A DNA stretch of 64,000 bases from the IMG/VR virus record IMGVR_UViG_3300042563_003307, positions 124,001-188,000 of that record. The stretch is one strand, 5' to 3'. The stretch is from a virus. The notes under the pieces were generated by a model. It had not been told where the DNA came from. It saw only the letters and a list, made by a program, of their open reading frames with translations, and made no database searches. The translations under genes were made by a program, and so were the position numbers. Shown piece after piece: positions 13,759-31,782 of this stretch; positions within the stretch are counted from its first letter, which is position 1, and each line of letters starts with the position of its first letter.

Positions 13759-13759
13759 A

Positions 13760-14092: not shown

Positions 14093-14114
14093 TATCGTTT
14101 TTTATTTTTATTAA

Positions 14115-14124
14115 TTATATATCT
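14115..14124 (-). promoter_or_regulatory. Late-type promoter element AGATATATAA
   Basis: The minus strand reads AGATATATAATTAATAAAA, 22 bases before the ATG of the tagged gene at 14092 and downstream of a terminator. The same decamer recurs before the genes at 31748, 39408 and 43736. Confidence 0.5.
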
Positions 14125-14191
14125 GATTTTGATATACAAATATAAACATTAATTTTTAAACCGGAAAACTTTTTATGTTAAATTTTAAAAT

Positions 14192-14222
14192 AAAAAAGCA
14201 GGGAGTAGCGAATTCCCTGCTT
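14192..14222 (-). terminator. Rho-independent terminator after ribonucleotide reductase
   Basis: The minus strand forms a 9-bp stem AAGCAGGGA / TCCCTGCTT with a nine-base loop, followed by TTTTTTA. It closes the unit that includes nrdA and nrdB. The 60 bases between the nrdA stop and this terminator contain a further small hairpin (14256-14275). Confidence 0.8.
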
Positions 14223-14282
14223 AACACCTCCGTGAACTAGTCCCGGTCCTAAAATGCAATCATGTTTCAGATTGCCGGTTCA

Positions 14283-15908
14283 TTATGCCGAACAGCTATC
14301 GCATTCAAGAATATCTCTTGCAAATGATTGCGCTGAACTTTGGCTAAATTGGTAGTATAATGTTTTAACCCCTTCCTCGTGAGCATAAAGATACAATGTA
14401 TTAATATCTTTAGCGGGTACTGAAGGATGAATCATCAAATTTAGTGACTGTGATTGGTCAATAAAATGTTGTCTTTGAGCCGCTTGCAGTACAATTTCTT
14501 TTGGACTGATTTCAACGAAAGATTTAAAAACTTCTTTGGTTGGAAAGTCTAAATGTTGTACACTTCCGTCTCTCTTTAAGATTCCTTCCCAAACTTCTGG
14601 TGTATTTAAACCATATTTGTCCAGCTCTTGAATTAAGAAAGGATTTTTGTAAATTGTTTTTGACTTGGCCAAATCTTTAATAAAATAATTAGATTTGATT
14701 GGTTCAATTCCCATACTTACTTGTCCTAAAATAAATGAACTACTTTTGGTTGGAGCAATCGCAACTAGAGTAGTGTTAGCGTATCCTGGTCGGATTGATT
14801 TGTAACCTTTCTCATCATGCAATAATCTAGAAGCCGCTTCACTCTTTTCTTTTAGTGTTGAAAAGATTTCATGATTCAATTGTTTTGCTTGAAGTGAATC
14901 AAAACTGATTAATTTAGATTGAAACAATGAATGATAACCAAGGACTCCAAGTCCTAAGGCTCTGTGGTCATTTGCAAATCTCCATGCTCTTTTCATTCCA
15001 GGCATATTATAAGATTTATTTATGAACTCATTCATAACTGCGTTTAAGAACATTGTATAAACTTCGATAGCATCAGTTTCTTTAATTTCGTCCCAGTGTA
15101 ATAGGTTAATAGAACCTAAACAACAAACAAATGAATTGAATGAATCTGTTGGTAATTGAATTTCACTACAAAGGTTACTTGCAGTAATATCAAGTCCTAA
15201 TTCTTTGTATGGCGAATTATTGTTTGAGTTATCTTTAAACATAATATATGGAAAACCAAACTCATTACGTCTTTGAATTACCTTAGCCCAAATTTTACGT
15301 TTTTCAGCATCTCCTGATTTCATATCAGCGATCCAAGCATCAGTAACAGTAACTCCATATTGTAGGTTTTGAATTGGATTCCCTTCAGTTCCAATATCTA
15401 AGAATTCTAAAATGTCATTATGTTCAACTGGTAACCAAACCGCGCATGCTCCTCTTCGGGCTTCTGATTGTTTACAAACATCAACTGTTGTATCATATAA
15501 TCTGGCATAGTGTACTGGACCATCGGCAGTTCCTCCTGTCGAAATCTTAGTACCTCTTGCCCGGATGTTTCCTAAAAATGCAGAAGTTCCTCCTCCGTAT
15601 TTTGACATCATTCCAACTTCTCTACTTCCATTTAAGATACTATCTAAAGTATCATCTACATTACTTCCATAACAACTAACCGGAAGTCCTTTGTCTTTTC
15701 CATAATTAATCCAAACTGGAGTTGATAAACTATAGAATCCTCTAGTCATATAGTCCTCAAACTTTTTTGCAAATCCTTCAATTTTTAAGTCTTTTTCTGC
15801 GGTATTTGCTACATCTTTAATTCGCTGCTCTGGAGATTCAGTAATATAACCTCTAGATAAAAATGTTCTACTGTCTTCGTTAAGCCAGTAATTCTTCTCG
15901 TAATCCAT
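14283..15908 (-). CDS. nrdA: Ribonucleotide reductase large subunit, short form
   Basis: 541 aa, shorter than the usual ~750 aa because the N-terminal ATP-cone is missing. Class I features are present: S-C-Y-G-S-N near residue 78 (first redox Cys), N-L-C-S-E near 245 (active-site Asn, Cys, Glu), a second redox Cys in F-V-C-C-L-G-S-I-N near 262, and a C-terminal C-D-S-C redox pair. It reduces ribonucleotides to deoxyribonucleotides with the NrdB protein encoded just upstream. Lack of the ATP-cone implies loss of dATP feedback through that domain. Confidence 0.92.
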   Translation of the reverse strand: MDYEKNYWLNEDSRTFLSRGYITESPEQRIKDVANTAEKDLKIEGFAKKFEDYMTRGFYSLSTPVWINYGKDKGLPVSCYGSNVDDTLDSILNGSREVGMMSKYGGGTSAFLGNIRARGTKISTGGTADGPVHYARLYDTTVDVCKQSEARRGACAVWLPVEHNDILEFLDIGTEGNPIQNLQYGVTVTDAWIADMKSGDAEKRKIWAKVIQRRNEFGFPYIMFKDNSNNNSPYKELGLDITASNLCSEIQLPTDSFNSFVCCLGSINLLHWDEIKETDAIEVYTMFLNAVMNEFINKSYNMPGMKRAWRFANDHRALGLGVLGYHSLFQSKLISFDSLQAKQLNHEIFSTLKEKSEAASRLLHDEKGYKSIRPGYANTTLVAIAPTKSSSFILGQVSMGIEPIKSNYFIKDLAKSKTIYKNPFLIQELDKYGLNTPEVWEGILKRDGSVQHLDFPTKEVFKSFVEISPKEIVLQAAQRQHFIDQSQSLNLMIHPSVPAKDINTLYLYAHEEGVKTLYYQFSQSSAQSFARDILECDSCSA

Positions 15909-15930
15909 TTAGTTTAATTTGTTTTTAATT

Positions 15931-16908
15931 TTAAAATAAGTCGTCTTCGGTAATTGCCTTAGACTTTTTGTTGTAGTCAATTGATTTTTTGTAGAAGAAA
16001 TCACCTTCTTTTGTTGAAAGAATCTCAACATCAAACCATAGAGATTTTTCAATTTCTGTAAAATCAACTTCAAATACTGGTTTCATTCCAATTCGTTGTA
16101 GGGAATTATTAAAACGATTTTGAATAAATTGTTTGATAGTTTCTTTTGGTAAGAAATCAAGTTCACCATTTTCAAAGATCCAATCAAGAATTTTAACCTC
16201 TGCTAGGTATGCTTTCTTACATGCAGAATCTATAAGTTGTTCAAATTCCTCATCAAACCATTCTGGATTTTCTCTTCTAATAATGTTAATTAATTCAGAT
16301 CCGAAGTTTCCGTGGATTTCCTCCTCTTTACTTGTCGCTTCAACTACATTTGAAATACCTTTAAATAGATTTTTTTCTTTGTTAAAGGACATCATAATAA
16401 AGAATTGGCTAAATAGACTAACATGTTCTATAAACAATGAAAATAGCAATACGGATTTCGTATACATTTTATTGTCCTTACTTCTTGTACCATCCAAATA
16501 CTTTGTCAAGTATGCAATTCTATCTTTAATTGCTGGAATCTCTACTACATGTTGGAATTCATCTTCTAATCCTAGGATTCTTAATAATTGTGCGTAAGCA
16601 TCTTTGTGTCGCACTTCACTTTCGGCAAATGTCATACCAACATCTCCAATTTCAGTGATTGGCATTCTTTTGTAAAGATCTGCCCAAAAAGTTTTAACAT
16701 TAACTTCAATTTGTGCAATTGCTAGCATCGATCTTTTAATTACTTCACGCTCTGGATCAGTGACTTTAGTCATAAAATCATCGATATCTGTTGTAAAATT
16801 AAATTCGGTGTGAATCCAATATGAGTGACGGATTGCGTCTTTGTATGCTAATAGTGAAGGGTATTCGTAAGGTAAAATATTTACGCGTTTTTGAAAGATA
16901 TTGCTCAT
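15931..16908 (-). CDS. nrdB: Ribonucleotide reductase small subunit (class I beta)
   Basis: 325 aa, normal length. Metal ligands appear in the helices carrying I-E-V-N-V near residue 70, A-E-S-E-V-R-H-K-D near 103-110 and E-E-E-I-H near 197. It holds the diiron/tyrosyl radical cofactor for NrdA. The end E-D-D-L-F is the expected acidic tail that docks on NrdA; it also happens to end in L-F like several other proteins here. Upstream is a TATATATAAAC stretch that could be a promoter. Confidence 0.92.
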   Translation of the reverse strand: MSNIFQKRVNILPYEYPSLLAYKDAIRHSYWIHTEFNFTTDIDDFMTKVTDPEREVIKRSMLAIAQIEVNVKTFWADLYKRMPITEIGDVGMTFAESEVRHKDAYAQLLRILGLEDEFQHVVEIPAIKDRIAYLTKYLDGTRSKDNKMYTKSVLLFSLFIEHVSLFSQFFIMMSFNKEKNLFKGISNVVEATSKEEEIHGNFGSELINIIRRENPEWFDEEFEQLIDSACKKAYLAEVKILDWIFENGELDFLPKETIKQFIQNRFNNSLQRIGMKPVFEVDFTEIEKSLWFDVEILSTKEGDFFYKKSIDYNKKSKAITEDDLF

Positions 16909-16944
16909 TGGTGATAATTTATTTTAGAAGTTTATATATAAGTT

Positions 16945-18342
16945 TTATTGGAGCAGTTTTTTCAACCGGTCAGCTTTTGTGTAATATTCATAAGAAGTTT
17001 TTTTATAATCTTTACGTTGTGCATATAGGTCACTTAATATCTTTCTGAGAATAGAATCTTCGGTCTTATAAACTACGCCATTATCACAAACGATAACCTC
17101 TTTATTTTTTCTGCGCTCTTCAATTTCACTTTTATAAATCTTTTCAATATATGCATCGGGAGATATATTAAATTGTCTCATTATCGAAGGATATAGTGAA
17201 GCAAAATCGAATGCACTTACACCTTCATAGAATCCTAAGATTGGTTCTTTTACAAATGCTCCAGCATATTGGCCATCTTTTTGGCTATCAGATTTCTCTT
17301 CACTTCCAATTCGCATTCCTTGCTCAGCAAGTTTTCTTGCCATAATTGCTTCAGTAACTGCCACTGGAGAACTTGCTTTGTATAACGGCATATTTGTAAT
17401 ATTTGCCAGTGTTAGTAGTACCTCCATCGACTTCAACTTCTGGTCAATGTAATATACAAGCACTGAATCGACAACATTGTAATATATGTACTTGACAAAG
17501 TTATCCCGGTATAAGTCCTGTAGTGATCCAGTGAACTTGATTTTGTTAACGTTCAAGACTTGACTTGAAACATAATCTAATGAATTGGATTCTTTAACTT
17601 TTACAGTTCGGTCATATTTGTCATACAATTGCATATAGTCAAGAATTCCGATATGAAGAGGACGACCATCTGTATGATCGATTGAATGGGTCATACCAAC
17701 TTCTTTAATATCGATTTGAAGTCTTTTACATCGATTAACGATATACTGCCAGTCATAGTTGATAAAATTCCACCCAGTCATCATAGGAAACTTTGGTAAG
17801 AATTTCATTAAGAATGTGTAAACCATATCGTACTCAGACTTGAACTTATGGTACTTAAATTCCCAGTCCTGGTCAAAATCTTTGAAGTACTCATTAGTAT
17901 CGTCTTGAATCTTTTGGATTTTATCTGAAGCCATATCTTCCAGTCCAAGCACGATTGCTTTACGGTCTGGAGTAATTATTGAGAATGAAAGAATTCTACT
18001 TTTGGCCTCTTCGGCTTTTGGAAAGCCATCAACAATTTCAGTTTCAATATCGACAAAATAAGTCTTTGGCATATTATATGCTGTTAGGTCTTTTTTGTCC
18101 TTCTCTGAAAGATTATCTAAAAAATAAAGAATTGAAAACTTATTAAATTGTTTTCCATATCCTAATTTAACAGGACGGCCATCCCAGTTTTTATAGTCTG
18201 GACTGGCCGCTCTGTCTTTTTCATCACAAACATACCAATTTTGGAATTTATCCACTGGGTATTGTTTAAATGCTACTTCTCCCTTGTCATTATAGTATGA
18301 AATGATAACATCTTTTTCACGCTGCTCGATGTCAAGTATCAT
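16945..18342 (-). CDS. 43: DNA polymerase family B, N-terminal half with exonuclease (gp43-N)
   Basis: 465 aa. It carries the proofreading exonuclease motifs Exo I F-V-D-I-E-T (D98, E100), Exo II G-W-N-F-I-N-Y-D-W near residue 205 and Exo III Y-N-V-V-D-S near 302. Polymerase motif A D-F-A-S-L-Y-P-S-I follows near 392. It then runs into a Lys/Tyr-rich helix (Y-A-Q-R-K-D-Y-K-K) and stops at K-K-L-L-Q, before motif B. The rest is encoded at 11169-12365, with the clamp, two tagged genes and nrdAB in between. Neither piece shows signs of decay, so the two probably assemble into one polymerase. Start overlaps the dUTPase stop (TAATG). Confidence 0.93.
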   Translation of the reverse strand: MILDIEQREKDVIISYYNDKGEVAFKQYPVDKFQNWYVCDEKDRAASPDYKNWDGRPVKLGYGKQFNKFSILYFLDNLSEKDKKDLTAYNMPKTYFVDIETEIVDGFPKAEEAKSRILSFSIITPDRKAIVLGLEDMASDKIQKIQDDTNEYFKDFDQDWEFKYHKFKSEYDMVYTFLMKFLPKFPMMTGWNFINYDWQYIVNRCKRLQIDIKEVGMTHSIDHTDGRPLHIGILDYMQLYDKYDRTVKVKESNSLDYVSSQVLNVNKIKFTGSLQDLYRDNFVKYIYYNVVDSVLVYYIDQKLKSMEVLLTLANITNMPLYKASSPVAVTEAIMARKLAEQGMRIGSEEKSDSQKDGQYAGAFVKEPILGFYEGVSAFDFASLYPSIMRQFNISPDAYIEKIYKSEIEERRKNKEVIVCDNGVVYKTEDSILRKILSDLYAQRKDYKKTSYEYYTKADRLKKLLQ

Positions 18343-18809
18343 TAATAGTTATTTTTCTGACGTTGAACGTTTGCTTCTGCTTTTGCGAAGTAGTAATTAT
18401 AGGCTGTTTTGGCATCCAATCCAATCGATGCTGCATAGTTAAATACAAAGTGGATTATGTCGACCCATTCCATATACAATTCTTTTTTATCATCTTCCGA
18501 TAGGTCACTGATTTTCAGGGTTTCATACTTTGAAAAGTCTTTTTTCCAGTATTTCCAAACTGCATTTCCACTACCATCTTTAATACCACCAAGAGCATCG
18601 GTCATTTCATGAATTTCATCAATAACAGCGTGTGTGTTAACATGCCAAAAGTTCATAATCTCTCTAAGTGTCATATCTTCGAAATTAAAACCATAGGTTT
18701 GCTCTTGCATTTTCTTTTGATTTTCCATGATGTCAGCTAAATGTGTAGTTGATTCATTGTAGAAGTCATTAACTTCCAGGTCTTTACATTGATTGTCTAT
18801 ATTTGCCAT
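18342..18809 (-). CDS. Dimeric dUTPase (all-alpha NTP pyrophosphatase)
   Basis: 155 aa. The pattern E-I-H-E-M-T-D-A-L ... W-K-Y-W-K-K-D ... E-W-V-D-I-I-H-F-V-F ... N-Y-Y-F-A-K-A-E-A-N-V-Q-R-Q is that of the dimeric dUTPase/MazG-like superfamily, with Glu and Asp metal ligands. It would convert dUTP to dUMP, keeping U out of DNA and supplying dUMP for thymidylate or hydroxymethyl-dUMP synthesis. It directly precedes the polymerase N-half and follows the modification-like cassette. Confidence 0.8.
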   Translation of the reverse strand: MANIDNQCKDLEVNDFYNESTTHLADIMENQKKMQEQTYGFNFEDMTLREIMNFWHVNTHAVIDEIHEMTDALGGIKDGSGNAVWKYWKKDFSKYETLKISDLSEDDKKELYMEWVDIIHFVFNYAASIGLDAKTAYNYYFAKAEANVQRQKNNY

Positions 18810-18851
18810 AAGTTTTTTATATAATAGTTTTATAGGTAATTTTGAACTTGT

Positions 18852-20042
18852 TTAAAATAAACATGAACTTTTAAATGATGGAGCTTCAATCTCACAAGAT
18901 TCACCAATTTGTTCTTTTGAAATTGGAGCATTTGCACGGTTTAAGGCCATCTTTTTACTATCTCTCAATCGTAAAAATACACCAAACTGACAACAACTAA
19001 TTTCAGTACCAAATGTAGTAAACCTTCCAGTCTCTGTGATTGTTTGTAAGTAGTCAAAATTCTCTCCTGTAAAATCAAAGAATTCATGTTGAGTGTCCCG
19101 GATTTGTCTGATGACTTTAGCTCCAACGTCAGATGAAATTGAAAAACCTAAGTCTTCATAGAACCAGTTGATTGTAATCATCGCACCAACTCCGGGTGCA
19201 ACAAAATCATCATCTTCGTTAAGATTTCCAGATAAACTATTTGGTCGCAATAGATCAGGAGTACCGATTTCAGGCATTCTGGCAAGGTTGGTACTAAAAT
19301 GGTAACCATAATAGTTTCCAATTCCTCGATGAGAAGTTAAAAATTCAAAAGACTCTTCCATCGTCGGTTTCTTAGCATAGAATTCTGCAAAACGTGGACC
19401 TAGTAGAGTAAACCAAAAAAACATATCGCTTGTTCGACTCTGTCTGATTGGATCTGGTTCGGCATTTATTAATACATCATAAGGAGTTTTAAGTACTCGG
19501 GCATAGTTTCTTGATTCAGTCTGAAGACTTGTTCGTAATTCAGTAGTGCCATAAATCTTTTCTCCACGTCTTTTTGCATTTTCCATGTTAACCATACACT
19601 GTAGAACATACTTCTCATCATTAACTAATCGGTCATATTTGACAAATGGAAATCCAGTGTCGTGCGTTAATAGACTAATTGTATTTGACGGTCCATAGAA
19701 TTTTACAATCGCTGCATTAATAAGACGGTCTTCAAATGTACAGTCTGGATTGTAGAACACATTTTCATTTAACCAAATAATCTCATCGTGAAAAGAACGA
19801 TTTGGATGGAAGTATGGAACTGAACGTCCATCTACTATAAATCCATGTCCAAACGTGTTTTCTTTTCCAGTTCCTTCACGGTGCCGAAAGGTATCAAAAG
19901 TACATGTTTTTGCAAAACGAACCTCATATTCTCTTCGATTCATTTCATGAACAAAATCTCGAATAAGTTGTCTTTTTTCTACAGGAATTAAATCCAATAG
20001 GGCTTGAGAATCCATCTCAAGCAGTTTTTTGTTTGAAGTCAT
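18852..20042 (-). CDS. HhH (DNA-glycosylase-fold) protein of the thymine-hypermodification clade
   Basis: 396 aa. Residues ~85-135 (F-H-P-N-R-S-F-H-D-E-I ... E-D-R-L-I-N-A-A-I-V-K-F-Y) match by eye the helical domain shared by the predicted alpha-glutamyl/putrescinyl-thymine pyrophosphorylases and the 5-hmdU DNA kinase helical domain. R-G-I-G-N-Y-Y-G-Y-H near residue 242 fits a helix-hairpin-helix, and A-P-G-V-G-A near 287 a second G-x-G turn. Family members are predicted to replace a pyrophosphorylated hydroxymethyl group on thymine with another moiety. The C-terminal region has a Cys pair (S-C-C) and the protein ends S-C-L-F, like the polymerase tail. The exact reaction is unknown. Confidence 0.65.
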   Translation of the reverse strand: MTSNKKLLEMDSQALLDLIPVEKRQLIRDFVHEMNRREYEVRFAKTCTFDTFRHREGTGKENTFGHGFIVDGRSVPYFHPNRSFHDEIIWLNENVFYNPDCTFEDRLINAAIVKFYGPSNTISLLTHDTGFPFVKYDRLVNDEKYVLQCMVNMENAKRRGEKIYGTTELRTSLQTESRNYARVLKTPYDVLINAEPDPIRQSRTSDMFFWFTLLGPRFAEFYAKKPTMEESFEFLTSHRGIGNYYGYHFSTNLARMPEIGTPDLLRPNSLSGNLNEDDDFVAPGVGAMITINWFYEDLGFSISSDVGAKVIRQIRDTQHEFFDFTGENFDYLQTITETGRFTTFGTEISCCQFGVFLRLRDSKKMALNRANAPISKEQIGESCEIEAPSFKSSCLF

Positions 20043-20049
20043 TTTAAGT

Positions 20050-20751
20050 TTATTTTTTAAAGAAGCAATCGTGCGCTATTAAATTATCGGTAAATATAAT
20101 CAATGGAACTATTCTAGAATGTGAATAAATTGACTGTAGCCTTTCCATTACTTGGTACATTTCAGCTCTGTGTTTTCCAGCGTGTAATTCAATAAATAAA
20201 TATTTAGGTTGATAATCTATTAAGGTATCGATTAGCGTATATTCAGCAGATTCAATATCCATTTTAATTATATCCGGATTGTATTTCTTTAGTAATTTTT
20301 TTAGATGGATATTTTCAACTGAATCATATTCATTAAACTTTACCTTGTTCTCAATTGAAGTTGAGCAATGCGCATTTTGACTTGACGATTTGAATATCTT
20401 TAGTGTTTTATCAGGAAGTCCAGAAACTGCAGCATATATTAAATCCACATAATCATCATTTTTAAATGTTGATTGTAATTTTTCAAAGTTTCGGGCATCA
20501 CATTCTACAGTACAAACTTTGCTTGCTCCGGAATCTATTGCAATTTGAGTAAAAGCACCAATATTGGCTCCAAGGTCTAAACAAACTGTTCCATTATAAT
20601 CAATTTCAGGAACTAAGTAATTAGAAATGCTTTCACCAATCATAGTATCGTCAACACCTTCTGATGCACCTAGTATTTTAACATACTTCTTTTTAAGTCG
20701 AGTCCTTTCTAATTTTGAAATTGGAAACTCTGGAAGTTTAACCCTACTCAT
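20050..20751 (-). CDS. FkbM-family SAM-dependent methyltransferase
   Basis: 233 aa. Motif I D-L-G-A-N-I-G-A-F-T lies near residues 59-68, followed by V-E-C-D-A near 80, and I-I-K-M-D-I-E-S-A-E-Y near 160. This is the FkbM signature for O-methylation of sugars and other hydroxyl compounds. No other Rossmann-type domain is fused. It lies between the HhH protein and the HAD phosphatase, with gaps of at most seven bases, so the three are one unit. It may methylate a hydroxyl of an inositol- or sugar-derived modification, which is inference. Confidence 0.8.
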   Translation of the reverse strand: MSRVKLPEFPISKLERTRLKKKYVKILGASEGVDDTMIGESISNYLVPEIDYNGTVCLDLGANIGAFTQIAIDSGASKVCTVECDARNFEKLQSTFKNDDYVDLIYAAVSGLPDKTLKIFKSSSQNAHCSTSIENKVKFNEYDSVENIHLKKLLKKYNPDIIKMDIESAEYTLIDTLIDYQPKYLFIELHAGKHRAEMYQVMERLQSIYSHSRIVPLIIFTDNLIAHDCFFKK

Positions 20752-20752
20752 C

Positions 20753-21151
20753 TTATTTTTGTACTAATTTTGATACAATATTAACCAATTCTACATCAGG
20801 ACAATTTTCCTGAAGGATTTGATATTGTATTGGGTCATCTTCAAAAAAACGTGAAACAATAACACCTTCACCCTTTAAACGGTTAATAGTATGGGCTTTG
20901 TGATGCCCAGAATGTCTTCTTGCCGCAACTGTATGATTTCCACGTTCCTCTAGAGTCATTGGATTAAAATACACTTTGCATTTAATTCCTCTCTCTTTAA
21001 GGATTGCGAGAACCTCGTCCTGTTCATCGACACATCTTCCGGTAATAACAAAATCTGTGGTTGCTCTTGGAGTTATTCCAATTGAGATTACTCCATCAAA
21101 ATCGTATCCGTAGATATCGACTGATTTTTTAGTTTTAAATATATTTAACAT
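20753..21151 (-). CDS. Small HAD-superfamily phosphatase
   Basis: 132 aa with a full set of HAD motifs: D-F-D-G-V near residue 17 (nucleophile and acid/base Asp), I-T-G-R near 35, a Lys in H-H-K-A-H near 85, and E-D-D-P-I-Q near 102. There is no large cap domain, so it may act on a small or exposed phosphate such as a nucleotide, a sugar phosphate or a DNA end. It sits just downstream of inositol-phosphate synthase, so dephosphorylation of inositol phosphate is an attractive but untested idea. It overlaps no neighbour and starts after the terminator at 21167-21195. Confidence 0.75.
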   Translation of the reverse strand: MLNIFKTKKSVDIYGYDFDGVISIGITPRATTDFVITGRCVDEQDEVLAILKERGIKCKVYFNPMTLEERGNHTVAARRHSGHHKAHTINRLKGEGVIVSRFFEDDPIQYQILQENCPDVELVNIVSKLVQK

Positions 21152-21166
21152 GCTAAAAGTTTTGAT

Positions 21167-21195
21167 AAAAAAAGGGAGAGTTATTCTCTCCCTTT
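21167..21195 (-). terminator. Rho-independent terminator after inositol-phosphate synthase
   Basis: The minus strand forms a perfect 10-bp stem AAAGGGAGAG / CTCTCCCTTT with a five-base loop and a T-run. It separates ino1 from the HAD-FkbM-HhH unit, so the latter needs its own promoter or read-through. Confidence 0.9.
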
Positions 21196-21211
21196 TGGAT
21201 TAATTGGATTG

Positions 21212-22402
21212 TTAGTTTTTTGTTTTAGCAACTAACTGGTTTCTTGTAGAATCTGTTAGGCGTCTTGCAGCCAATTCAGTACACTCATAAACAGCGTCAG
21301 AGAACATCATCTGGTCTGGTGGAGTTTTTTGTGTAAACGCTGAAGGACCTCTTAAGGCTCCTACAACTCCTAATTCTCTTGCAACTCTTAAGTAACGAAC
21401 TGCGTCGATTACAACTCCTGCAGAGTTTGGAGAGTCTTGTACACTTAATTGAGCATCAAAAAGAACTGGTGCTCCACCGAATCCTGTAAGTTCTAAACGG
21501 AAGTTAGCAACTTTATTATCACCATAGAATGCGATATATTCAGAAGGACCTGCATGTAAGAATGAATCTTCAGTTGAGATTCCTCTAATTTCGTTTTGAG
21601 CACGAATAACGTTTTCTTTAGAAATCTTTTTAGATGCTAGACGAGATTTGTCTTCCATGTTTAAGAAATCTGTGTTACCTCCAACGTTTCTTTGGATGTG
21701 CGCTTTTACATGATGTCCTCTTTCAAAGGCAAGTTCTTGTAACATTTGAGAAAGAATACTTGCTCCAAATTGAGAACGCATATCATCTCCGATAATTGGA
21801 ATACCTGCATCGATAAATCTTTGCTCCCAAGCTGGGTCAGATGCGATAAAAACTGGAATACAGTTTACTAAAGAGATTCCTGTTTCAAGACAAATTTCAG
21901 CCCAGAATTCAGTTGTTTTTTGTGAACCTACTGGTAAGTAGTTAATAAGTACTTCAACACCGTGGTCTTTTAATTTAGCAATAATTGAATCTTTCCACTC
22001 ACGTGATTTTTTTGGAGTCCAATCAGTACGGTTCATGTCTGTAGAATTTCTTAGTTTTTCGTCAACTAAGAAACGATTTTGCTCTGGATAGTTGTCCATA
22101 AGAGCTGCGTAACCATCAATAACAGGTGATTCATAAACTGGTGCTGTAGAAGTAATAACATCAACGATGTCATACGCACAGTTTGGTCTTTGTTTAAGGG
22201 CATATCCTAATGTTTGATTAACTTTACGTTCATCAATTTCAAAGGCACATTCAAATTCAATATTTTCTGCCTTGTAACCTCCAATATCGGACTTCATCAT
22301 TCCGGTAATATCATTTGGATTTTCTGTGTAATATTGTACACCTTCAACTAATGATTTAGCGCAATTTCCGGCTCCAATAATTCCTACTTTAATTTTCTTC
22401 AT
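21212..22402 (-). CDS. ino1: Myo-inositol-3-phosphate synthase
   Basis: 396 aa. NAD-binding G-I-I-G-A-G-N-C-A-K-S at 8-18, Y-L-P-V-G-S near 155, P-V-F-I-A-S-D-P near 180, G-D-D-M-R-S-Q near 200, N-V-G-G-N-T-D-F-L-N near 240, K-K-I-S-K near 257 and D-S-P-N-S-A-G near 338 match the actinobacterial/archaeal Ino1 type (about 365 aa) along the whole length. The enzyme converts glucose-6-phosphate to inositol-3-phosphate with NAD. The motifs look intact, so it should be active. A phage copy is unusual. Its neighbours suggest that inositol or a derivative enters DNA modification or a surface glycan. Confidence 0.93.
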   Translation of the reverse strand: MKKIKVGIIGAGNCAKSLVEGVQYYTENPNDITGMMKSDIGGYKAENIEFECAFEIDERKVNQTLGYALKQRPNCAYDIVDVITSTAPVYESPVIDGYAALMDNYPEQNRFLVDEKLRNSTDMNRTDWTPKKSREWKDSIIAKLKDHGVEVLINYLPVGSQKTTEFWAEICLETGISLVNCIPVFIASDPAWEQRFIDAGIPIIGDDMRSQFGASILSQMLQELAFERGHHVKAHIQRNVGGNTDFLNMEDKSRLASKKISKENVIRAQNEIRGISTEDSFLHAGPSEYIAFYGDNKVANFRLELTGFGGAPVLFDAQLSVQDSPNSAGVVIDAVRYLRVARELGVVGALRGPSAFTQKTPPDQMMFSDAVYECTELAARRLTDSTRNQLVAKTKN

Positions 22403-22453
22403 TGTTCTTAAAATTTAATTTATAATTTTTATACTTGTTTTATTTAAAAAGTT

Positions 22454-23515
22454 TCAAAAAAGAGTATTGATAGTCTTCTTTAGGACAACATTTTTTTCGG
22501 ACGTCTCGAAATCATATTGGTAAAACTCTCTAGATAGGTGAACAGAACCTGGCTTTTCCATGTAAGTATCGGCAAAATATTGAGGTTCTGCTGAATACCA
22601 GTGAATTGGCCATTCGATTACGTTCATATTATATATAGCCGAGAGTTTGTCAACCTCTTCGTTAAATATCTCCATCAATTGAGTCCGTTCTCGTTGAGTT
22701 CCGATAAATGGAGTATTTTTGTAGTACCCAGTTTTTGGGATTCTACGACCTTCGAATTCGATTGGCAATAATTTTACAATGGTATTCTTTTGGATTCCTA
22801 AAGATTTAAGGTGTTCAAAGTAATTTGTTACTAGACTTTTAACTGCATCAATAGGTTTTTCTTGTCGACATAGGTGATGTCGAACATCAATGTTTCCAAA
22901 GTATGTAATTAGGTGCTCGGTTCCTTCAGGAATATATGAGGCCATTCCTTCTTTCAAGACTCCAAATAGTGTTTTACCATCATTTCGACTAATATTTGCA
23001 CCAGGATGGTACACTGAAACTGAATGAGAATCTCCCAATACAAATGTTTTTGAATCTAATTTTAATTCAATTGTTTGGGTTTCTAAACTTCTTTTGGTAA
23101 GCTCTGCTGTATTAAGAGATGCCCATAAAGGAGAACATGATTTCATTCGACTTTCGGCAAATTGGCCAACATTTGGCATTTCTCGATTCAAACAATATAT
23201 AGTTCCACTAAAATCTAAGAATCTTTTAATTCTCTCTGCTGGTTCATCAGTAGCTCCACCAAATAGATTATAAGAACCTTGGAATTCCATTGGAAGCGCT
23301 ACTAGCCAGATATCATATTGGTGAATATCTTCTGACTTTGTAAGTACTTCAACTTCTAATCCTAGAGACCTCAATTGATTAGCTAATAAGAAGGCCCATG
23401 CACTTTTATGAGAGGCCTTCTTTGAGCTATAAGTTGTTACAACATCATCAATTGCAATCTTCTTTCCCTTTAATGATTCTAAAACTTCGTAAATATTAAC
23501 CATTGAAAGCGTCAT
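22454..23515 (-). CDS. SGNH-hydrolase-like protein
   Basis: 353 aa. After an alpha/beta N-terminal half (possible nucleotide- or sugar-binding Rossmann-like fold: K-K-I-A-I-D-D, then L-E-V-E-V-L-T), V-L-G-D-S-H-S near residue 158 fits SGNH block I (G-D-S). Y-F-G-N-I-D-V-R-H-H near 205 fits block III (G-x-N), and S-V-H-L-S near 328 fits the catalytic His block. Such enzymes hydrolyse or transfer acyl groups. The protein ends T-L-F. An internal ATG at 23503 would give less overlap with the preceding gene. Role in the ino1 cassette is inferred from position only. Confidence 0.6.
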   Translation of the reverse strand: MTLSMVNIYEVLESLKGKKIAIDDVVTTYSSKKASHKSAWAFLLANQLRSLGLEVEVLTKSEDIHQYDIWLVALPMEFQGSYNLFGGATDEPAERIKRFLDFSGTIYCLNREMPNVGQFAESRMKSCSPLWASLNTAELTKRSLETQTIELKLDSKTFVLGDSHSVSVYHPGANISRNDGKTLFGVLKEGMASYIPEGTEHLITYFGNIDVRHHLCRQEKPIDAVKSLVTNYFEHLKSLGIQKNTIVKLLPIEFEGRRIPKTGYYKNTPFIGTQRERTQLMEIFNEEVDKLSAIYNMNVIEWPIHWYSAEPQYFADTYMEKPGSVHLSREFYQYDFETSEKNVVLKKTINTLF

Positions 23516-23789
23516 CTATATCGTTTCTATTTTCTTCAATGTAATTGTCTAATCCTTGGATATATGCAACTGCATCTAATAAATTATCACGCTTGTGATT
23601 GTATGATTCTCTCGAGAATTTAAGTGCAACTAGCGCTTTAAACATGTGTTCACCAGTAACTTCAAGTCCGGTCATACCTTTAAAAATCATTGCAGCTCGA
23701 TCCATACCTTCTGAGAAAGGACCATAATTTCTGTCTGCTTCTTCTGAGCGGTTGTTTACAATTCCGCTTGCTTCATCTAAAATATTCAT
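23496..23789 (-). CDS. Small conserved phage protein (DUF6378-like)
   Basis: 97 aa, helical: I-V-N-N-R-S-E-E-A-D-R-N-Y-G near residue 10, then M-F-K-A-L-V-A-L-K-F-S-R near 45, then a helix with D-N-L-L-D-A-V-A-Y-I-Q-G-L-D. This pattern of R-x-x-x-Y-G, a long helix with K-x-x-R and a C-terminal D-x-x-x-Y occurs in a conserved phage family annotated DUF6378, which resembles MazG-type all-alpha folds; function is unknown. Its 3' end overlaps the next gene. Confidence 0.65.
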   Translation of the reverse strand: MNILDEASGIVNNRSEEADRNYGPFSEGMDRAAMIFKGMTGLEVTGEHMFKALVALKFSRESYNHKRDNLLDAVAYIQGLDNYIEENRNDIDDAFNG

Positions 23790-23843
23790 AAATTGTGTTT
23801 AGTTATTATATGTTATATATTGGTTTTGTTTTTTATGCACTTA

Positions 23844-24068
23844 TTAACGACCAGTTTCCATTTCAAACTGACGTTTTTCATGGTCATGCTCACTATAAAC
23901 ATTACAGTTTAAGTAAGCTCCATATTTTGAATAATCTCCAATATATGAAGTCGATGTGCGAACTTCTGATGGGTTAATATTAAAACAAAAATCATACTCT
24001 TCTTGGGTCAAGTATGTTTGGTTATTCATAATTTGATTGTAACGTTCTTGCGTTGAAATTGAAGTCAT
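23844..24068 (-). CDS. Hypothetical 74-aa protein
   Basis: 74 aa from the ATG at 24068 (MTSISTQERYNQIMNN). An ATG at 24107 would prepend 13 Tyr/Ile-rich residues translated from an AT-rich leader, which looks like promoter region, so I chose the shorter form. Acidic and Tyr-rich with no recognised domain. It lies just after the terminator at 24119-24163, so it probably begins a new transcription unit. Confidence 0.55.
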   Translation of the reverse strand: MTSISTQERYNQIMNNQTYLTQEEYDFCFNINPSEVRTSTSYIGDYSKYGAYLNCNVYSEHDHEKRQFEMETGR

Positions 24069-24118
24069 AATATGTTTGTTTAAATTAGATATGTAAATAT
24101 AATACAAAAAATCGACAT

Positions 24119-24163
24119 AAAAAAATCCTGACTAAAAAAGTTATTAACAATTTTGTCAGGATT
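24119..24163 (-). terminator. Rho-independent terminator
   Basis: The minus strand has a 9-bp stem AATCCTGAC / GTCAGGATT with a 22-base loop, then seven T. The loop is larger than usual. It ends transcripts that cross the GC-richer region 24164-24477. Confidence 0.7.
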
Positions 24164-24477
24164 AAATTATTACGGGATCGTTTTTCGTGATTTTCTTCCC
24201 GGCGGAATAACCCATTTTATAGTCTTCGGCATTTACTTTCGCGAGCGTCTACTAAACTTCGACCCATCCTACCGGTTACCTATTGGGGTGGTGTGACTTG
24301 CGATCCATTTTTTATCCTGGTTAAACTTCCATTTGCCTGTTATACTTGATACTATCTCTGTAATACATCTGGCTATCATAGCTGTGTTTGTACTTTTTGC
24401 TGTACCGATCCACCTGGTTCCAATGTTTGCGTAGTTTATAATTGCTTGTATCGTTTGCTGTAAGGAACCAATTATTT
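24164..24477 (-). other. GC-richer gene-free region, possible structured RNA
   Basis: 314 bases without an ATG-started gene, clearly richer in G and C than the flanks. On the minus strand GGATCG (24301-24306) can pair with CGATCC (24175-24180), closing a ~130-base segment directly before the terminator. The upstream part contains degenerate TACAGCAAA-like repeats. Two overlapping frames are open for 50-68 codons but have no normal start. A small RNA or a gene remnant are both possible. Confidence 0.35.
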
Positions 24478-24843
24478 TTATTTAATTATTACGAATAAAC
24501 CTCCTCTAGATGACGCAGATTCAGTGTTACCATTAGCTAAAGTAACTTTAGATAGTACTTCACCACCTAATTCTTTAGCAACTTCTTCTGCTACTGAATT
24601 TACTTCAAAGAAAACAACACTACCTCCATTATCTGCTAGTATGTTATATCCATCGCCTTCTACTACATTTGGCTTTTTAATCATTTTATTGATAGGACCA
24701 TTTACTGATTTACTATCAATGTTAATAATGTAAGTACCACTGCGACTTTTATAAGCTTTTGGACTTTGAGCATTTTCTATAGGCTCATATACATTATGGT
24801 CCGATTCATTTACAAAATCTTCGAATAGTTTAATGTGTTTCAT
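24478..24843 (-). CDS. Capsid-targeted hypothetical protein (MKHIKLFEDFVNE tag)
   Basis: 121 aa. Starts MKHIKLFEDFVNESDHN. The rest is a small alpha/beta domain without recognised family: N-I-D-S-K-S-V-N-G-P near 45, then G-G-S-V-V-F-F-E-V near 75, and the end G-G-L-F-V-I-I-K. An ATATATAA-type late element lies 18 bases upstream of the ATG. Likely cleaved after F-V-N-E on head maturation, by analogy with T4 internal proteins. Confidence 0.75.
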   Translation of the reverse strand: MKHIKLFEDFVNESDHNVYEPIENAQSPKAYKSRSGTYIINIDSKSVNGPINKMIKKPNVVEGDGYNILADNGGSVVFFEVNSVAEEVAKELGGEVLSKVTLANGNTESASSRGGLFVIIK

Positions 24844-24860
24844 CTTTGAGATATATTTCT

Positions 24861-24871
24861 TTTATATATTC
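24861..24871 (-). promoter_or_regulatory. Late-type promoter element GAATATATAAA
   Basis: The minus strand reads GAATATATAAAAG, 18 bases before the ATG of the tagged gene at 24843 and directly after the stop of the vWA gene. It differs from AGATATATAA at one core base. Confidence 0.4.
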
Positions 24872-26296
24872 TTATACAATTGGAGCGTATCTCTCACTCA
24901 AAATTGTTTTATCCATTATTTGTTGTGGAGATTCGATATCTCCACCAAGTAAACTTGTCATAATTGCTGGAGAGAATCCAGAAACTAATGCAGTTCCTTT
25001 AGCATCAAATGCAACTGGTACTCCTCCGTTTCGGGATTGAATATTCCAGTAAACAATTTGAGGTACCCTGTAACCTGCATCGGCATAAAGGGTTTCAATC
25101 ATCTTCTGAGCAGTTGGATTCCAGTGGCTTTCTCTACCGTAACCTTTTCCTGTTGCCGAATTAAATTCCATATCCGATAGGATTAAGATTTTGTTTGGCA
25201 TTTTGTCTTGAGACAATTTGTGCTTAGTGGCCTGATCTAGGATCAGTTTGAATGTAGCCTCAAGATCTGTTGACATTCCCCAATCAGAGTCTGACATCTG
25301 TGTGTAGCGATCATTCAGTGAGCCACTTAATACTTGTAACTGTGGTTTACTTGAGAATGTGATAAATGCATCTTTGAAAAGACCTTCATTTCTTTCAGAA
25401 ATATAAAGACCTAAAGAGATTGCAACATTCATACAAGTTACAGTTTTACTTCCACCAGCTGGAGTTGACATAGAACCTGAAACATCTACTACTGGTAAAA
25501 TCATATCGTTTGCACCTTCCAAATAGTTTGGTAAGGCTTTCCATTGTTCGTTTGCTACGGTTGCATTTCCACGTTCTAATGATGTAATAACGTCATAAGG
25601 ATAAACTGCACCTGCATTAATTTTAGCCTCACCTTTTACAAGAGAAGCAATGTACGCTGAATAACTTTCGTATGCATTTTTACCAAAGGCTTTTTGGTAT
25701 CTAGCCGAAGCAACTGAAGGTAATTTACCAAAATCAATAGAATTCCAGTCTTTAGCACACATTTTAGTTTCAACTACATTAGTTAAACCTACAAGAGATT
25801 TTCTGTATTGTTTTGGGGACATTCCAGTAAATTTACGTAACTTTTCAGCTATTGGACCTTTACGTGGCATCCATTTAGCACATAAACCGTTTTCGTTGAT
25901 TAATGCATCAGAGATTAGGGTGAATGCATCTTTTTCAAGATATGTTCCTGATAGGGCTAATAAGTCATCCCAACGACCATACTCTGAGATTAAGTGTAAG
26001 TTTGGTTTAAGTACTAAGTCGTGGTTTTCTGCTAAATAAACTAAAATGTCCTTGAAAACTTGACGTTCTCCAGCTCCACCTCGAACATCTCTGGCCCAGA
26101 AAAGTAGTTTCATAGCACGCTTCGGATCTTCATTAAATGCTTTAGAGAAAGTTGCAATCAAACGTTGCTTGTCTTGTCCTCTCATAGCTCCAATGTTAAA
26201 GAAAAGGTCAACGCAAGCATTCAATGAACTCGAGTTTGTCGCCATTCCATTTTCAGTTACTATATCTTCTTGTCTTAATGCGTCTAAGAATTCCAT
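24872..26296 (-). CDS. DUF2828/TROVE-like protein with von Willebrand A domain
   Basis: 474 aa. The N-terminal ~250 residues are helical with the conserved W-A-R-D-V-R-G-G-A-G-E-R at about 67-78 and Y-G-R-W-D-D-L near 106, as in DUF2828/TROVE-like HEAT-type rings. The C-terminal part is a vWA fold with an intact MIDAS D-V-S-G-S at 271-275 and a later I-L-S-D-M-E. Relatives of TROVE (Ro60) bind structured RNA, so an RNA-binding or chaperone role is possible. It has no capsid-targeting tag, unlike its neighbours. Function in phages is unknown. Confidence 0.75.
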   Translation of the reverse strand: MEFLDALRQEDIVTENGMATNSSSLNACVDLFFNIGAMRGQDKQRLIATFSKAFNEDPKRAMKLLFWARDVRGGAGERQVFKDILVYLAENHDLVLKPNLHLISEYGRWDDLLALSGTYLEKDAFTLISDALINENGLCAKWMPRKGPIAEKLRKFTGMSPKQYRKSLVGLTNVVETKMCAKDWNSIDFGKLPSVASARYQKAFGKNAYESYSAYIASLVKGEAKINAGAVYPYDVITSLERGNATVANEQWKALPNYLEGANDMILPVVDVSGSMSTPAGGSKTVTCMNVAISLGLYISERNEGLFKDAFITFSSKPQLQVLSGSLNDRYTQMSDSDWGMSTDLEATFKLILDQATKHKLSQDKMPNKILILSDMEFNSATGKGYGRESHWNPTAQKMIETLYADAGYRVPQIVYWNIQSRNGGVPVAFDAKGTALVSGFSPAIMTSLLGGDIESPQQIMDKTILSERYAPIV

Positions 26297-27427: not shown

Positions 27428-27964
27428 TTACTTTTGGTCTATTTGTATGATTTCAGAACCTCTGATTTCAACGTTATTTTCTCCAATTTCGGCATCATAT
27501 CCACCGTAAATGTCTTCTCCACCTGCAATTGCAGTATTTAACATACCTCCTAATTTGTTCTTAAATTTAGAACCATCAACATCATCCATAAAACCAATAT
27601 TAATTACAAAGTCTCCGGGAATTCTAATATGTAAAGGAGCACCATCTCTATTCAATCTATTAATAGTATCTGGTTCCCATGAAAGATTTAGTCCTTTGAC
27701 GTGTACATATACAACTTGGTCCATATCTTTTACAACCTTTTTAATTTCATCTAGGATGATTTTTTCGGCAGTTTTGGTAAAATCCCACCATGCACCATTA
27801 ACCTCTTCTAAAGTATCTGCTGCATCTCCTTCAAAAGTGGCAGTTTCAATTTCTTTTTTAAAAGCCTGCATAACTTTACCAATAATACCTTTAGAGGTAT
27901 AAGGTCCAGTCATTCTGTATGCTTTTTCATTTAAGAAATCTTCAAATAATTTTATGTGTTTCAT
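27428..27964 (-). CDS. Capsid-targeted hypothetical protein (MKHIKLFEDFLNE tag)
   Basis: 178 aa. After the tag (MKHIKLFEDFLNEKAYRM) comes a mixed alpha/beta domain with many charged residues and V-Y-V-H-V-K-G-L-N near residue 95. No family recognised. Its start codon shares a base with the stop of the preceding gene (TAATG), indicating tight coupling within the tagged-gene operon. Confidence 0.75.
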   Translation of the reverse strand: MKHIKLFEDFLNEKAYRMTGPYTSKGIIGKVMQAFKKEIETATFEGDAADTLEEVNGAWWDFTKTAEKIILDEIKKVVKDMDQVVYVHVKGLNLSWEPDTINRLNRDGAPLHIRIPGDFVINIGFMDDVDGSKFKNKLGGMLNTAIAGGEDIYGGYDAEIGENNVEIRGSEIIQIDQK

Positions 27965-28410
27965 TATTTTATAGGATTTTTATTCATTGCAGCGTCTTGG
28001 TTTTTCTCTTGCCAATTGTAAGATACTTTGTCTTCAGTAATAGGTCCACCTTTTGCCCATGTGTAACATGTTCGAGCTGAATGGCATTTAAAATGATGCA
28101 TCCAACAGTATCCTAATTTACCATCGTCGTCACTAATCTCGCCAGGCATACAGTCTAACATTCTTGGTGATATGTCGAAAGCAACACAATTTCCACATGT
28201 TGATTTTTTAGCAGCTTCAACACTAGTATTCCAATGATCAGCTATATGCTCCCAAAAACCTGCAGGTTCATCAACATTAAGAGGTCCATATTCAATAAAG
28301 TCTGCTTTAATTGCGCGGTCTCTATTATTAGTGTTAACCTTTAAGTCCTTTGTCGGTACAGGGCAACTAGTTGCTTCTTTAAATTCTTCGAAAAGTTTTA
28401 TAGTTTTCAT
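27964..28410 (-). CDS. Capsid-targeted Cys-rich protein, HiPIP-like pattern
   Basis: 148 aa. A tag-like start MKTIKLFEEFKEA is followed by C-G-N-C-V-A-F near residue 72, then C-M-P-G near 85, G-Y-C-W-M-H-H-F-K-C near 100 and R-T-C-Y-T-W near 115. The C-x2-C ... G-Y-C ... C-x(5)-C-x2-W spacing recalls high-potential iron-sulfur proteins and related phage Cys-rich proteins, so an Fe-S cluster or zinc site is likely. The tag lacks the usual N-E end; F-K-E-A could be a variant cleavage site. Confidence 0.7.
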   Translation of the reverse strand: MKTIKLFEEFKEATSCPVPTKDLKVNTNNRDRAIKADFIEYGPLNVDEPAGFWEHIADHWNTSVEAAKKSTCGNCVAFDISPRMLDCMPGEISDDDGKLGYCWMHHFKCHSARTCYTWAKGGPITEDKVSYNWQEKNQDAAMNKNPIK

Positions 28411-28411
28411 A

Positions 28412-29005
28412 TTATTTTACCTTAGGGTATTTAGTCTTAATTTCTTTATAGAATTTCTTGTAATTAGTAGCATTCATGTGGTCTTCAGCTGCTCTAAGCA
28501 AATCATCTAAAGAAGTCCATTGAACATCCGCTAATTGATCTTGTGTTGTTGAAACTTGAGCCATACGATCTAAAATTCCAAAAATAATATCATCTGTTAA
28601 TTTTGTTTCGGTACTTGGTTTTTCTTTACCTGCTGCTCTTTTAAGTGTCCACCAATCAACTTTCTTTGGAATTTGATATGATACAATTCCTCTTTGTTGG
28701 TCATTGGGACTAGTTTCTCCAGGTTTACCAATATTACTTTTAATATTATCCAGGTCTAAGTTATCATCAAATCCTTTTAATGCCTTTTGAATATCTTTAG
28801 TTGAATCTATATCTGCCATATCTGGTTCACTCCTAAGAAACATTCTATCAGTTGAACTCATATTAAAATAAATTCCTTTAACAGGTGAAATAGCTTTGAT
28901 AAATTGTTTTTGATACTCATCAGAATCTAGACCATTGTTATATCCTGGAAAGGTTTGCATCCTAGCTTCACCTACAAATTGTTCAAATAATTTGATATGT
29001 TTCAT
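28412..29005 (-). CDS. Capsid-targeted hypothetical protein (MKHIKLFEQFVGE tag)
   Basis: 197 aa. Begins MKHIKLFEQFVGEARMQTF. The body contains G-I-V-S-Y-Q-I-P-K-K-V-D-W-W near residue 115 and a helical C-terminus (D-D-L-L-R-A-A-E-D-H). No known family recognised. One base separates it from each neighbour, so it belongs to the same operon as the 913-aa protein upstream. Confidence 0.75.
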   Translation of the reverse strand: MKHIKLFEQFVGEARMQTFPGYNNGLDSDEYQKQFIKAISPVKGIYFNMSSTDRMFLRSEPDMADIDSTKDIQKALKGFDDNLDLDNIKSNIGKPGETSPNDQQRGIVSYQIPKKVDWWTLKRAAGKEKPSTETKLTDDIIFGILDRMAQVSTTQDQLADVQWTSLDDLLRAAEDHMNATNYKKFYKEIKTKYPKVK

Positions 29006-31772: not shown

Positions 31773-31782
31773 TTATATATCT
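31773..31782 (-). promoter_or_regulatory. Late-type promoter element AGATATATAA
   Basis: The minus strand reads AAAGATATATAAAACA, 25 bases before the ATG of the 913-aa protein. It overlaps the stop codon of the preceding gene. Confidence 0.5.

Follow-up and report, generated by a model that had tools for sequence, protein, structure and literature searches.

A conserved phage gene cassette that may link an inositol-type cyclitol to 5-hydroxymethylcytosine in DNA

We analysed a 64,000-nucleotide stretch of viral DNA (the window), bases 124001-188000 of the 234,066-base virus record IMGVR_UViG_3300042563_003307 (G000), and found in it a conserved cassette of five genes. Its predicted product, which we hold at somewhat better than even confidence, is phage-DNA 5-hydroxymethylcytosine (5-hmC) hypermodified with an inositol-type cyclitol. 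Taken separately, that the product is a cyclitol appears likely, and that this cyclitol is attached to DNA fairly likely. A sequence-only reading of positions 18852-23789 had already proposed that five adjacent genes form an inositol-based DNA hypermodification pathway. We confirmed these genes as minus-strand open reading frames (ORFs) at those positions, lying nearly without gaps (42, 7, 1, 60, 51 and -20 bases between neighbours from 18342 to 23789):

18852..20042, minus strand: HHH, a helical DNA-modification protein of the HMUDK_hel family by profile and predicted fold (PF18723, 33 bits, cut-off 25)
20050..20751, minus strand: FkbM-type S-adenosylmethionine (SAM) methyltransferase, putatively for optional tailoring by O-methylation (PF05050, E 8.8e-13)
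20753..21151, minus strand: minimal HAD-type phosphatase, proposed inositol-phosphate phosphatase (motif residues; weak phrog_415 match, E 1.6e-4)
21212..22402, minus strand: Ino1, inositol-3-phosphate synthase (PF01658, E 1.5e-22)
22454..23515, minus strand: SGNH-fold protein (SGNH), putative partner of HHH (predicted structure, AlphaFold2)

The cassette recurs among metagenomic phages. Scans of IMG/VR gave 37 close relatives of HHH, reduced to 35 loci, and 119 relatives of Ino1, of which 80 were kept (Ino1 at least 82% identical to the window's); profile scans gave 259 relatives of HHH and at least 597 of SGNH, with 80 kept each. Ino1 was present in 110 of 112 loci, which fell into 14 groups at 92% identity. 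The order SGNH-Ino1-HAD-(FkbM)-HHH was kept in 12 of the 14 while the outer genes varied, with one extra ORF inside in two; the exceptions were Caulobacter phage Cr30 and Stenotrophomonas phage IME-SM1, and two of the 14 groups were without FkbM. Before counting neighbours, we dropped loci with less than 3.5 kb of flank on either side or with the centre gene uncalled (47 of the 80 Ino1-scan loci; 10 of the 32 groups described next). The 33 Ino1-scan loci that passed this filter all carried SGNH, HAD and HHH, and 27 carried FkbM. Pooling all scans gave 211 Ino1 loci, some from repeated contigs, and grouping at 90% identity, which removes the repeats, reduced them to 32 groups. Among the 22 groups with flanks, HHH was found in 20, SGNH in 19, HAD in 19 and FkbM in 11, and Ino1 in the groups with HHH was as little as 43% identical to the window's. 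A HAD-like gene beside Ino1 in IME-SM1 (L003), annotated and matching phrog_415, was missed by the ORF caller, and that locus is counted as without HAD. In these groups gene order shifts with distance: SGNH leads in 13 and follows HHH in 6, and L159 and L161 have FkbM and HAD swapped. Counted from SGNH, 19 of 29 loci with flanks (from the 80 kept) carried both Ino1 and HHH; in Cr30, IME-SM1 and L187 the surroundings of Ino1 showed no SGNH. ORFs inserted within cassettes were few and mostly small, and not all were identified. The recurrence of this gene set around Ino1 in many metagenomic phages is more than chance, and by comparison of sequences the cassette is a conserved gene unit. Ino1 and HAD travel with HHH, in support of the sequence-only reading, and FkbM does so in about half of the groups.

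Ino1 is complete, as had been read from the sequence, and scores 80.3 bits for PF01658 (cut-off 27). Its closest solved relative is the Mycobacterium tuberculosis enzyme (1gr0, 262 bits), with the lysines aligned. The residues K258, K259, K262, K297, K359, D207, N243, D245 and D323, which we take to be catalytic, were invariant in 23 of 23 non-redundant relatives. Against the mycothiol Ino1 equivalog TIGR03450 the protein scored 288 bits, under the cut-off of 638. The HAD phosphatase of the sequence-only reading is upheld by its motif residues and finds no Pfam or NCBIfam family match: D17, D19, T37, K85, D105 and D106, presumably the DxD, T/S, K and DD motifs of HAD enzymes, were invariant in 42 of 42 non-redundant relatives, and we class 20753..21151 as a putative HAD-type protein by motif, not by curated profile.

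HHH belongs, by profile and by predicted fold, to the HMUDK_hel family, in agreement with its earlier placement in the thymine-hypermodification clade. The window protein matched PF18723 with E 5.4e-8, and relatives in other loci also scored above the cut-off (L120 47.8, L085 37.9, L168 29.6 and L187 41.5 bits). Its AlphaFold2 model had a mean pLDDT (predicted local distance difference test) of 90.5. Searched against BFVD, a set of predicted viral structures, the model matched an Aeromonas phage 31 protein best (1.6e-28), then two unnamed proteins (4.8e-6 and 3.0e-5), the 5-hydroxymethyldeoxyuridine (5-hmdU) DNA kinase of phage SP10 (1.5e-4), two helical-domain proteins (1.6e-4 and 2.8e-4) and, further down, aGPT-PPlase clade 1 proteins (2.7e-3 and 4.9e-3). 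Of the two families named for comparison with 18852-20042, HMUDK_hel was matched by profile, and aGPT-PPlase proteins appeared among the fold matches. Sequence searches of the PDB with the HHH and SGNH profiles gave chance-level rows only. Against solved structures, VIA-align ranked the 5-PmdU glycinyltransferase PUGT first (8z2n, Z 11.3, rmsd 3.8 over 228 residues), ahead of DUF2419 (8.8), helix-hairpin-helix glycosylases (at most 7.6) and then cytochromes P450 (Z at most 4.2). Two HHH subfamilies, 27-29% identical, occupy the same cassette slot. A signature, E-x3-C-x-[FWY], was present in 33 of 33 aligned HHH proteins, in 10 of 10 proteins of a class we call d0 (described below) and in 2 of 2 ADDT transferases, and is also visible in M6 gp55; within it, Cys351 of HHH is invariant. 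HHH was rejected as an ADDT protein, since neither Pfam (PF18724, no match in HHH nor in G000) nor hhalign matched, and the lack of a profile match sets the proven transferases further from HHH than the helical partner of the kinase. In phage M6 the HMUDK_hel and P-loop kinase proteins are neighbouring but separate, so a PF18723 match alone does not prove a transferase. In its proposed role, HHH would hold a flipped 5-hmC and probably join inositol to the base.

The modified base is probably cytosine, not thymine, on the evidence of the hydroxymethylase sequences. Of the two ThyA-family genes in G000, one encodes a standard thymidylate synthase whose specificity residue is Asn. The other (G000:C1:223977-224831, outside the window) matched T4 dCMP hydroxymethylase best (1b49, 6e-15), followed by CMP 5-hydroxymethylase (2e-14), and has Asp at the specificity position together with the catalytic Cys. 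In thymidylate synthase relatives, Asp versus Asn at this position goes with a preference for cytosine versus uracil. Asp likewise stands there in gp42 of Aeromonas phage 44RR2.8t (44RR) and, for 10 of 13 related records, in one protein each; several of the records are close kin of G000, and the 10 include L247, L239 and L249, which carry SGNH without Ino1 nearby. Asn was found in plain thymidylate synthases and in M6 gp58. We take gp58 for a dUMP hydroxymethylase on the ground that the modified bases of M6 derive from 5-hmdU; M6 has 5-(2-aminoethyl)deoxyuridine (PMC6449724). In 11 of the 22 groups an Asp-type hydroxymethylase gene and Ino1 are no more than 6.5 kb apart; a twelfth group, L113, was removed on account of its thymidylate-synthase Asn. 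Among the 10 loci L156-L165, nine have such a gene upstream of SGNH, at a remove of a few genes. Across linked loci, 26 of 29 ThyA-family ORFs had Asp and three had Asn, counted per locus with related contigs repeating. The thymine base of the sequence-only reading, which called for a dUMP hydroxymethylase and a 5-hmdU kinase elsewhere in the genome, is countered by the cytosine-type Asp and by the kinase profile PF18748, which matched the M6 control and nothing in G000 or the 13 related records, some perhaps incomplete.

Close to the hydroxymethylase (about 2.3 kb away) lies a GT2-type protein of 616 residues (G000:C1:219822-221672, 63 bits), which could glycosylate 5-hmC or a surface sugar. 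Both this protein and an AAA_33 protein (G000:88640-89047) were rejected as linked genes, with 0 relatives among 3,596 locus ORFs, a search in which the controls gave 195 matches for HHH and 48 for the hydroxymethylase. The T4 AGT and BGT profiles and the TAGT profile matched 0 of 7, 0 of 7 and 0 of 11 records; AGT and BGT matched no control either, so the absence of these two families is not established.

SGNH scores under the Pfam GDSL cut-off and is recognized by its predicted structure. The AlphaFold2 model (pLDDT 89.9) has an SGNH fold with an added N-terminal part. In a Foldseek search of the PDB, 28 entries matched at E<=0.001, for the most part SGNH/GDSL enzymes with a few designed scaffolds, and VIA-align placed a designed scaffold first (Z 12.3), with SGNH enzymes at 12.0 and below. 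The motifs GDSH and GNI[DN] were kept in 29 of 29 relatives and His326 is invariant, while the DxxH aspartate was present in 0 of 29 (last 90 residues checked). The model points to an SGNH-fold protein with an incomplete set of SGNH catalytic residues; the SGNH-like hydrolase proposed earlier thus holds for the fold and falls short at DxxH. Its target would be either the hydroxymethyl group or the cyclitol once attached. The FkbM assignment was borne out, with TIGR01444 at 61.3 bits against a cut-off of 37.7. The groups of L118 and L090 keep the cassette without FkbM, and L176 has a different methyltransferase between HAD and HHH (PF08241, 26.9 bits against 21.2). A C-5 cytosine DNA methylase match was found at L168:10136-11350 (PF00145, 3.9e-17), and the protein cluster to which it belongs adjoins SGNH or HHH in many loci of the L168-L182 group.

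SGNH also occurs in systems without Ino1. In most of the loci L241-L260 it is followed by the roughly 405-residue protein d0 (399-411 residues), and in 15 of these loci a PALP-like family of pyridoxal phosphate (PLP) type comes next; the member tested scored 25.9 bits for the PALP fold, against a cut-off of 35, and matched phrog_7093, 'threonine dehydratase', at 7.4e-39. Since M6 gp51-gp52 is a pair of ADDT and PALP proteins, the L241-L260 variant would resemble an amino-acid route. In L247 a single protein combines SGNH with a d0-type domain (36% identical). As a relative of HHH, d0 was rejected, because hhalign found nothing against HHH or ADDT; the two share only the signature, and their kinship is a lead only. 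SGNH is common to contexts with HHH, with d0, with UDP-galactopyranose mutase and in L239, and from these gene neighbourhoods it appears to be the most constant element, while the supply gene varies.

Cultured phages carry related arrangements. A tblastn search with HHH matched 19 phage records, every one an Aeromonas phage. A single 795-residue protein of Aeromonas phages, seen in 44RR2.8t, combines SGNH in the N-terminal half with HHH in the C-terminal half. The 44RR2.8t fusion gene follows an SSF symporter closest to vSGLT (3.3e-103). A choice of substrate for this symporter was abandoned, its best relatives being sodium/sugar symporters, so that inositol and hexose are not separable. The 44RR2.8t annotation includes gp42, gp56, gp1, alc and denA; the genome gave no match to Ino1, and no glucosyltransferase is annotated within 1-148,500 and 151,437-170,696 of the record. 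Import of a free hexose or cyclitol could replace synthesis in 44RR2.8t. At the motA-nrdC.10 locus, the site of the 44RR fusion, Aeromonas phage 25 has a UDP-galactopyranose mutase (5e-54), a 358-residue protein of no known kind and SGNH, and IME13 is arranged much the same way. The corresponding search with Ino1 matched 18 records, 16 from Stenotrophomonas phages and two from Cr30. In Cr30 (L004), an ADDT protein (1.3e-52) and a weak TAGT-like glycosyltransferase are followed by Ino1, and a HAD-type gene is present there too.

In the pathway we propose, the dCMP hydroxymethylase would make 5-hydroxymethyl-dCMP, which would be polymerised into DNA. Ino1 would convert glucose-6-phosphate to inositol phosphate, and the HAD protein would strip the phosphate to leave free inositol. 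HHH would bind DNA, flip 5-hmC and, with SGNH, link an inositol hydroxyl to the 5-methylene carbon. SGNH may activate the hydroxymethyl group, replacing the kinase of the thymidine pathway, or may acylate or deacylate the cyclitol; activation might alternatively come from HHH itself, with the invariant Cys351 as the candidate, or from the AAA_33 protein elsewhere in G000. Where present, FkbM would O-methylate the cyclitol, and its occurrence in about half of the groups fits a decoration step. The likely purpose is to shield virion DNA from host nucleases. More tentatively, and short of an even chance, phages may widely share a DNA base that consists of 5-hmC with myo-inositol attached through an ether bond, the inositol often being O-methylated, and that is built by a modular platform of SGNH and a helical protein. 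SGNH would be its constant part, and the supply would be swapped between Ino1 with HAD, a sodium symporter for hexose or cyclitol, and a PLP-type enzyme with an E-x3-C-signature protein for an amino-acid route.

Several observations weigh against an inositol conjugate on 5-hmC. No PDB structure matched HHH in Foldseek at E<=0.001, helical models can by the VIA-align tool's own note score Z 13-14 without clear kinship, hhalign found no kinship between HHH and the ADDT transferases (E 0.43), and the 44RR SGNH-HHH fusion scored 17.2 bits for PF18723, under the cut-off. SGNH lacks the DxxH aspartate, and in L187 none was found near HHH. The G000 hydroxymethylase is about 80 kb away from the cassette, and three of the 13 related records (L244, L253 and L258, pieces of 57-104 kb) had no ThyA-family match. 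For activation, the silence of PF18748 counts here as well, and the sole AAA_33 match in G000 belongs to a general family, no relative of the protein having turned up around the cassette. Ino1 is also not invariably tied to 5-hmC: the ThyA-family protein of Cr30 is of the Asn type only, and in IME-SM1, which had no ThyA-family match, Ino1 lies among the 7-deazaguanine genes FolE, QueC-like and QueE-like, where inositol on 7-deazaguanine is conceivable. Lastly, the literature searched gave no nucleoside analysis of these phages.

Four other explanations draw on the same data. Inositol or its phosphate might serve a lipid, an osmolyte or a change of host surface glycans, with the DNA-modification genes as mere neighbours. 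IME-SM1, which has Ino1 without HHH or ADDT nearby, fits this, as does the separate GT2-type glycosyltransferase, which may act on 5-hmC or on surface sugars; we consider it improbable because HHH and SGNH stay with Ino1 (20 and 19 of the 22 groups) while the outer neighbours change, the inserted ORFs are few and mostly small, though not all identified, and Ino1 of Cr30 adjoins an ADDT DNA transferase and the TAGT-like glycosyltransferase. The same pathway acting on thymine, with a kinase phosphorylating 5-hydroxymethyluracil and an aGPT-PPlase-like HHH adding inositol, is very improbable. It gains from the match of HHH to the helical domain of the 5-hmdU DNA kinase, from the dUTPase-like pyrophosphatase next door (18342..18809) and from the 5-PmdU glycinyltransferase that heads the VIA-align list of HHH. 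What counts against thymine is the cytosine-type Asp in the window's genome and in 10 of the 13 related records (no match in the remaining three), the Asn-type thymidylate synthase that G000 retains, and a kinase profile that found its target in M6 alone.

The remaining two alternatives keep the cassette on 5-hmC or on a cyclitol and redistribute the roles. In one, catalysis falls to SGNH, and HHH does no more than offer it the flipped base; jointly they would transfer a group to 5-hmC, inositol being added or decorated by SGNH chemistry. The analogy is with the P-loop kinase and HMUDK_hel, which jointly phosphorylate 5-hmdU and in M6 are likewise separate neighbours; SGNH moreover has HHH as its fusion partner in Aeromonas phages and a partner of a second class in L247, and its contexts extend to d0, the mutase and L239. 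This is possible though rather unlikely: phage 25, with SGNH beside UDP-galactopyranose mutase, is not among the tblastn hits of HHH, so HHH probably has no part in what SGNH does there, L187 showed no SGNH close to HHH, and SGNH enzymes are not known to form ethers. The other alternative is that Ino1 is a homologue with a shifted substrate, making another cyclitol phosphate, so that the group on DNA is not myo-inositol. The second best solved relative of Ino1, 6k96, is a five-membered cyclitol phosphate synthase (141 bits), which also tells against our preferred product, and the TIGR03450 score falls below its cut-off; the M. tuberculosis Ino1 scores far higher (262 bits), with the catalytic lysines aligned and invariant, and a shifted substrate is distinctly improbable. 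We retain an inositol-type conjugate on 5-hmC, made by HHH with SGNH, as the preferred reading.

Such a system would extend known ones, of which Iyer 2013 reportedly predicted many. Like the SP10/M6 5-hmdU kinase pathway, the cassette has a PF18723 protein, a ThyA-family hydroxymethylase and supply or tailoring genes near the DNA-acting protein; unlike that pathway, it has a cytosine-type hydroxymethylase, no PF18748 protein found, an SGNH partner, and Ino1 with HAD in place of amino-acid chemistry. HHH has the E-x3-C-x-[FWY] signature in common with ADDT/PUGT (PF18724; PaMx11 gp46 and M6 gp51), PUGT heads its VIA-align list, and ADDT adjoins Ino1 in Cr30, whereas HHH has no Pfam or hhalign match to ADDT and is about 100 residues longer than M6 gp51. 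With the glycosylated 5-hmC of T4, RB69 and Thanatos the cassette shares a dCMP hydroxymethylase, a dCTPase/dUTPase-type pyrophosphatase and, as predicted, a hexose-derived group on 5-hmC; it differs in showing no sugar-nucleotide step, in using a predicted free cyclitol with a helical DNA protein, and in giving no AGT or BGT match (profiles silent in the controls as well). Among the genes listed for arabinosyl-hmC in RB69 is one whose product bears a polynucleotide-kinase phosphatase domain (PMC8056088). Carboxymethylcytosine of phage S-B43 (CmoX/CmoY) has in common the two-step logic of handle and conjugate on cytosine (PMC12783734), and differs in handle, enzymes and conjugated group. The same paper describes 5-hmdU and 5-hmdC handles as glycosylated, aminated or carbamoylated (PMC12783734).

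A handle with a conjugate on a phage-DNA pyrimidine is therefore already known. As far as searches of open-licence literature reach, three things would be new: inositol as the conjugate, SGNH as the partner, and the use of the HMUDK_hel fold on cytosine. Among the matches listed from open-licence PMC text, none dealt in its title or in the opening of its abstract with inositol in phage DNA. If the prediction is true, DNA would gain a new class of attached group, the cyclitols, with no need of an activated sugar donor, and the helical DNA-modification fold would have taken on cytosine chemistry, with SGNH as its new partner. The cassette may also bear on the protein of no known kind suspected to act on a non-canonical base in some T4-like phages, including other Aeromonas phages, though 44RR is not named there (PMC8056088). 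Because cultured 44RR2.8t has the SGNH-HHH fusion together with a hydroxymethylcytosine gene set, the prediction is testable at once.

The genes flanking the cassette include a nucleotide pyrophosphatase and a polymerase, which agrees with the dUTPase and polymerase placed there from the sequence:

23496..23789, minus strand: DUF6378 protein, conserved beside SGNH (PF19905, E 1.4e-8)
18342..18809, minus strand: all-alpha nucleoside triphosphate (NTP) pyrophosphatase of dUTPase/dCTPase type (phrog_173, 9.8e-12; phrog_18650 dUTPase, 1.5e-8)
16945..18342, minus strand: family-B DNA polymerase, N-terminal part (sequence)

Transcription on the minus strand runs DUF6378, SGNH, Ino1, HAD, FkbM, HHH, NTP pyrophosphatase and polymerase N-terminal part. 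Relatives of DUF6378 were found in 99 of 112 loci. The pyrophosphatase, whose Pfam dUTPase_2 score is under the cut-off, may remove dCTP or dUTP; it had relatives in only 61 of 112 loci and so falls outside the cassette core. The remainder of the family-B polymerase was read from the sequence, not by profile, at 11169-12365. The split polymerase ORFs (16945-18342 and 11169-12365) enclose both ribonucleotide reductase genes among others, and 44RR likewise has a split gene (43/43B). Base composition does not distinguish the cassette (GC 0.347 against 0.325 in the window). HHH is identical in two further records of 234,467 and 236,071 bases, so G000 is probably near full length. A DNA-level search of phage records with window positions 14000-26000 gave no match.

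Some further features of the record were noted in passing. A protein at 24872-26296 of the window matches DUF7788 (4.4e-52) and DUF2828 (3.4e-34), and 40 of 112 loci have a relative of it close to the cassette. By a loose pattern, a MKHIKLFEQFVNE-like leader starts 22 of 252 predicted G000 ORFs, for example at window 13366-14092, 24478-24843, 27428-29005 and 35432-35980; this leader resembles the T4 capsid-targeting sequence, which suggests many internal head proteins. By eye, G000:C1:60567-62096 resembles a nicotinamide phosphoribosyltransferase and window 31773-33644 has a C-terminal nucleotidyltransferase-like part, possibly together a set for rebuilding NAD. Collagen-like proteins with long Gly-x-x repeats were likewise seen by eye in L006 (G000:C1:10936-19983).

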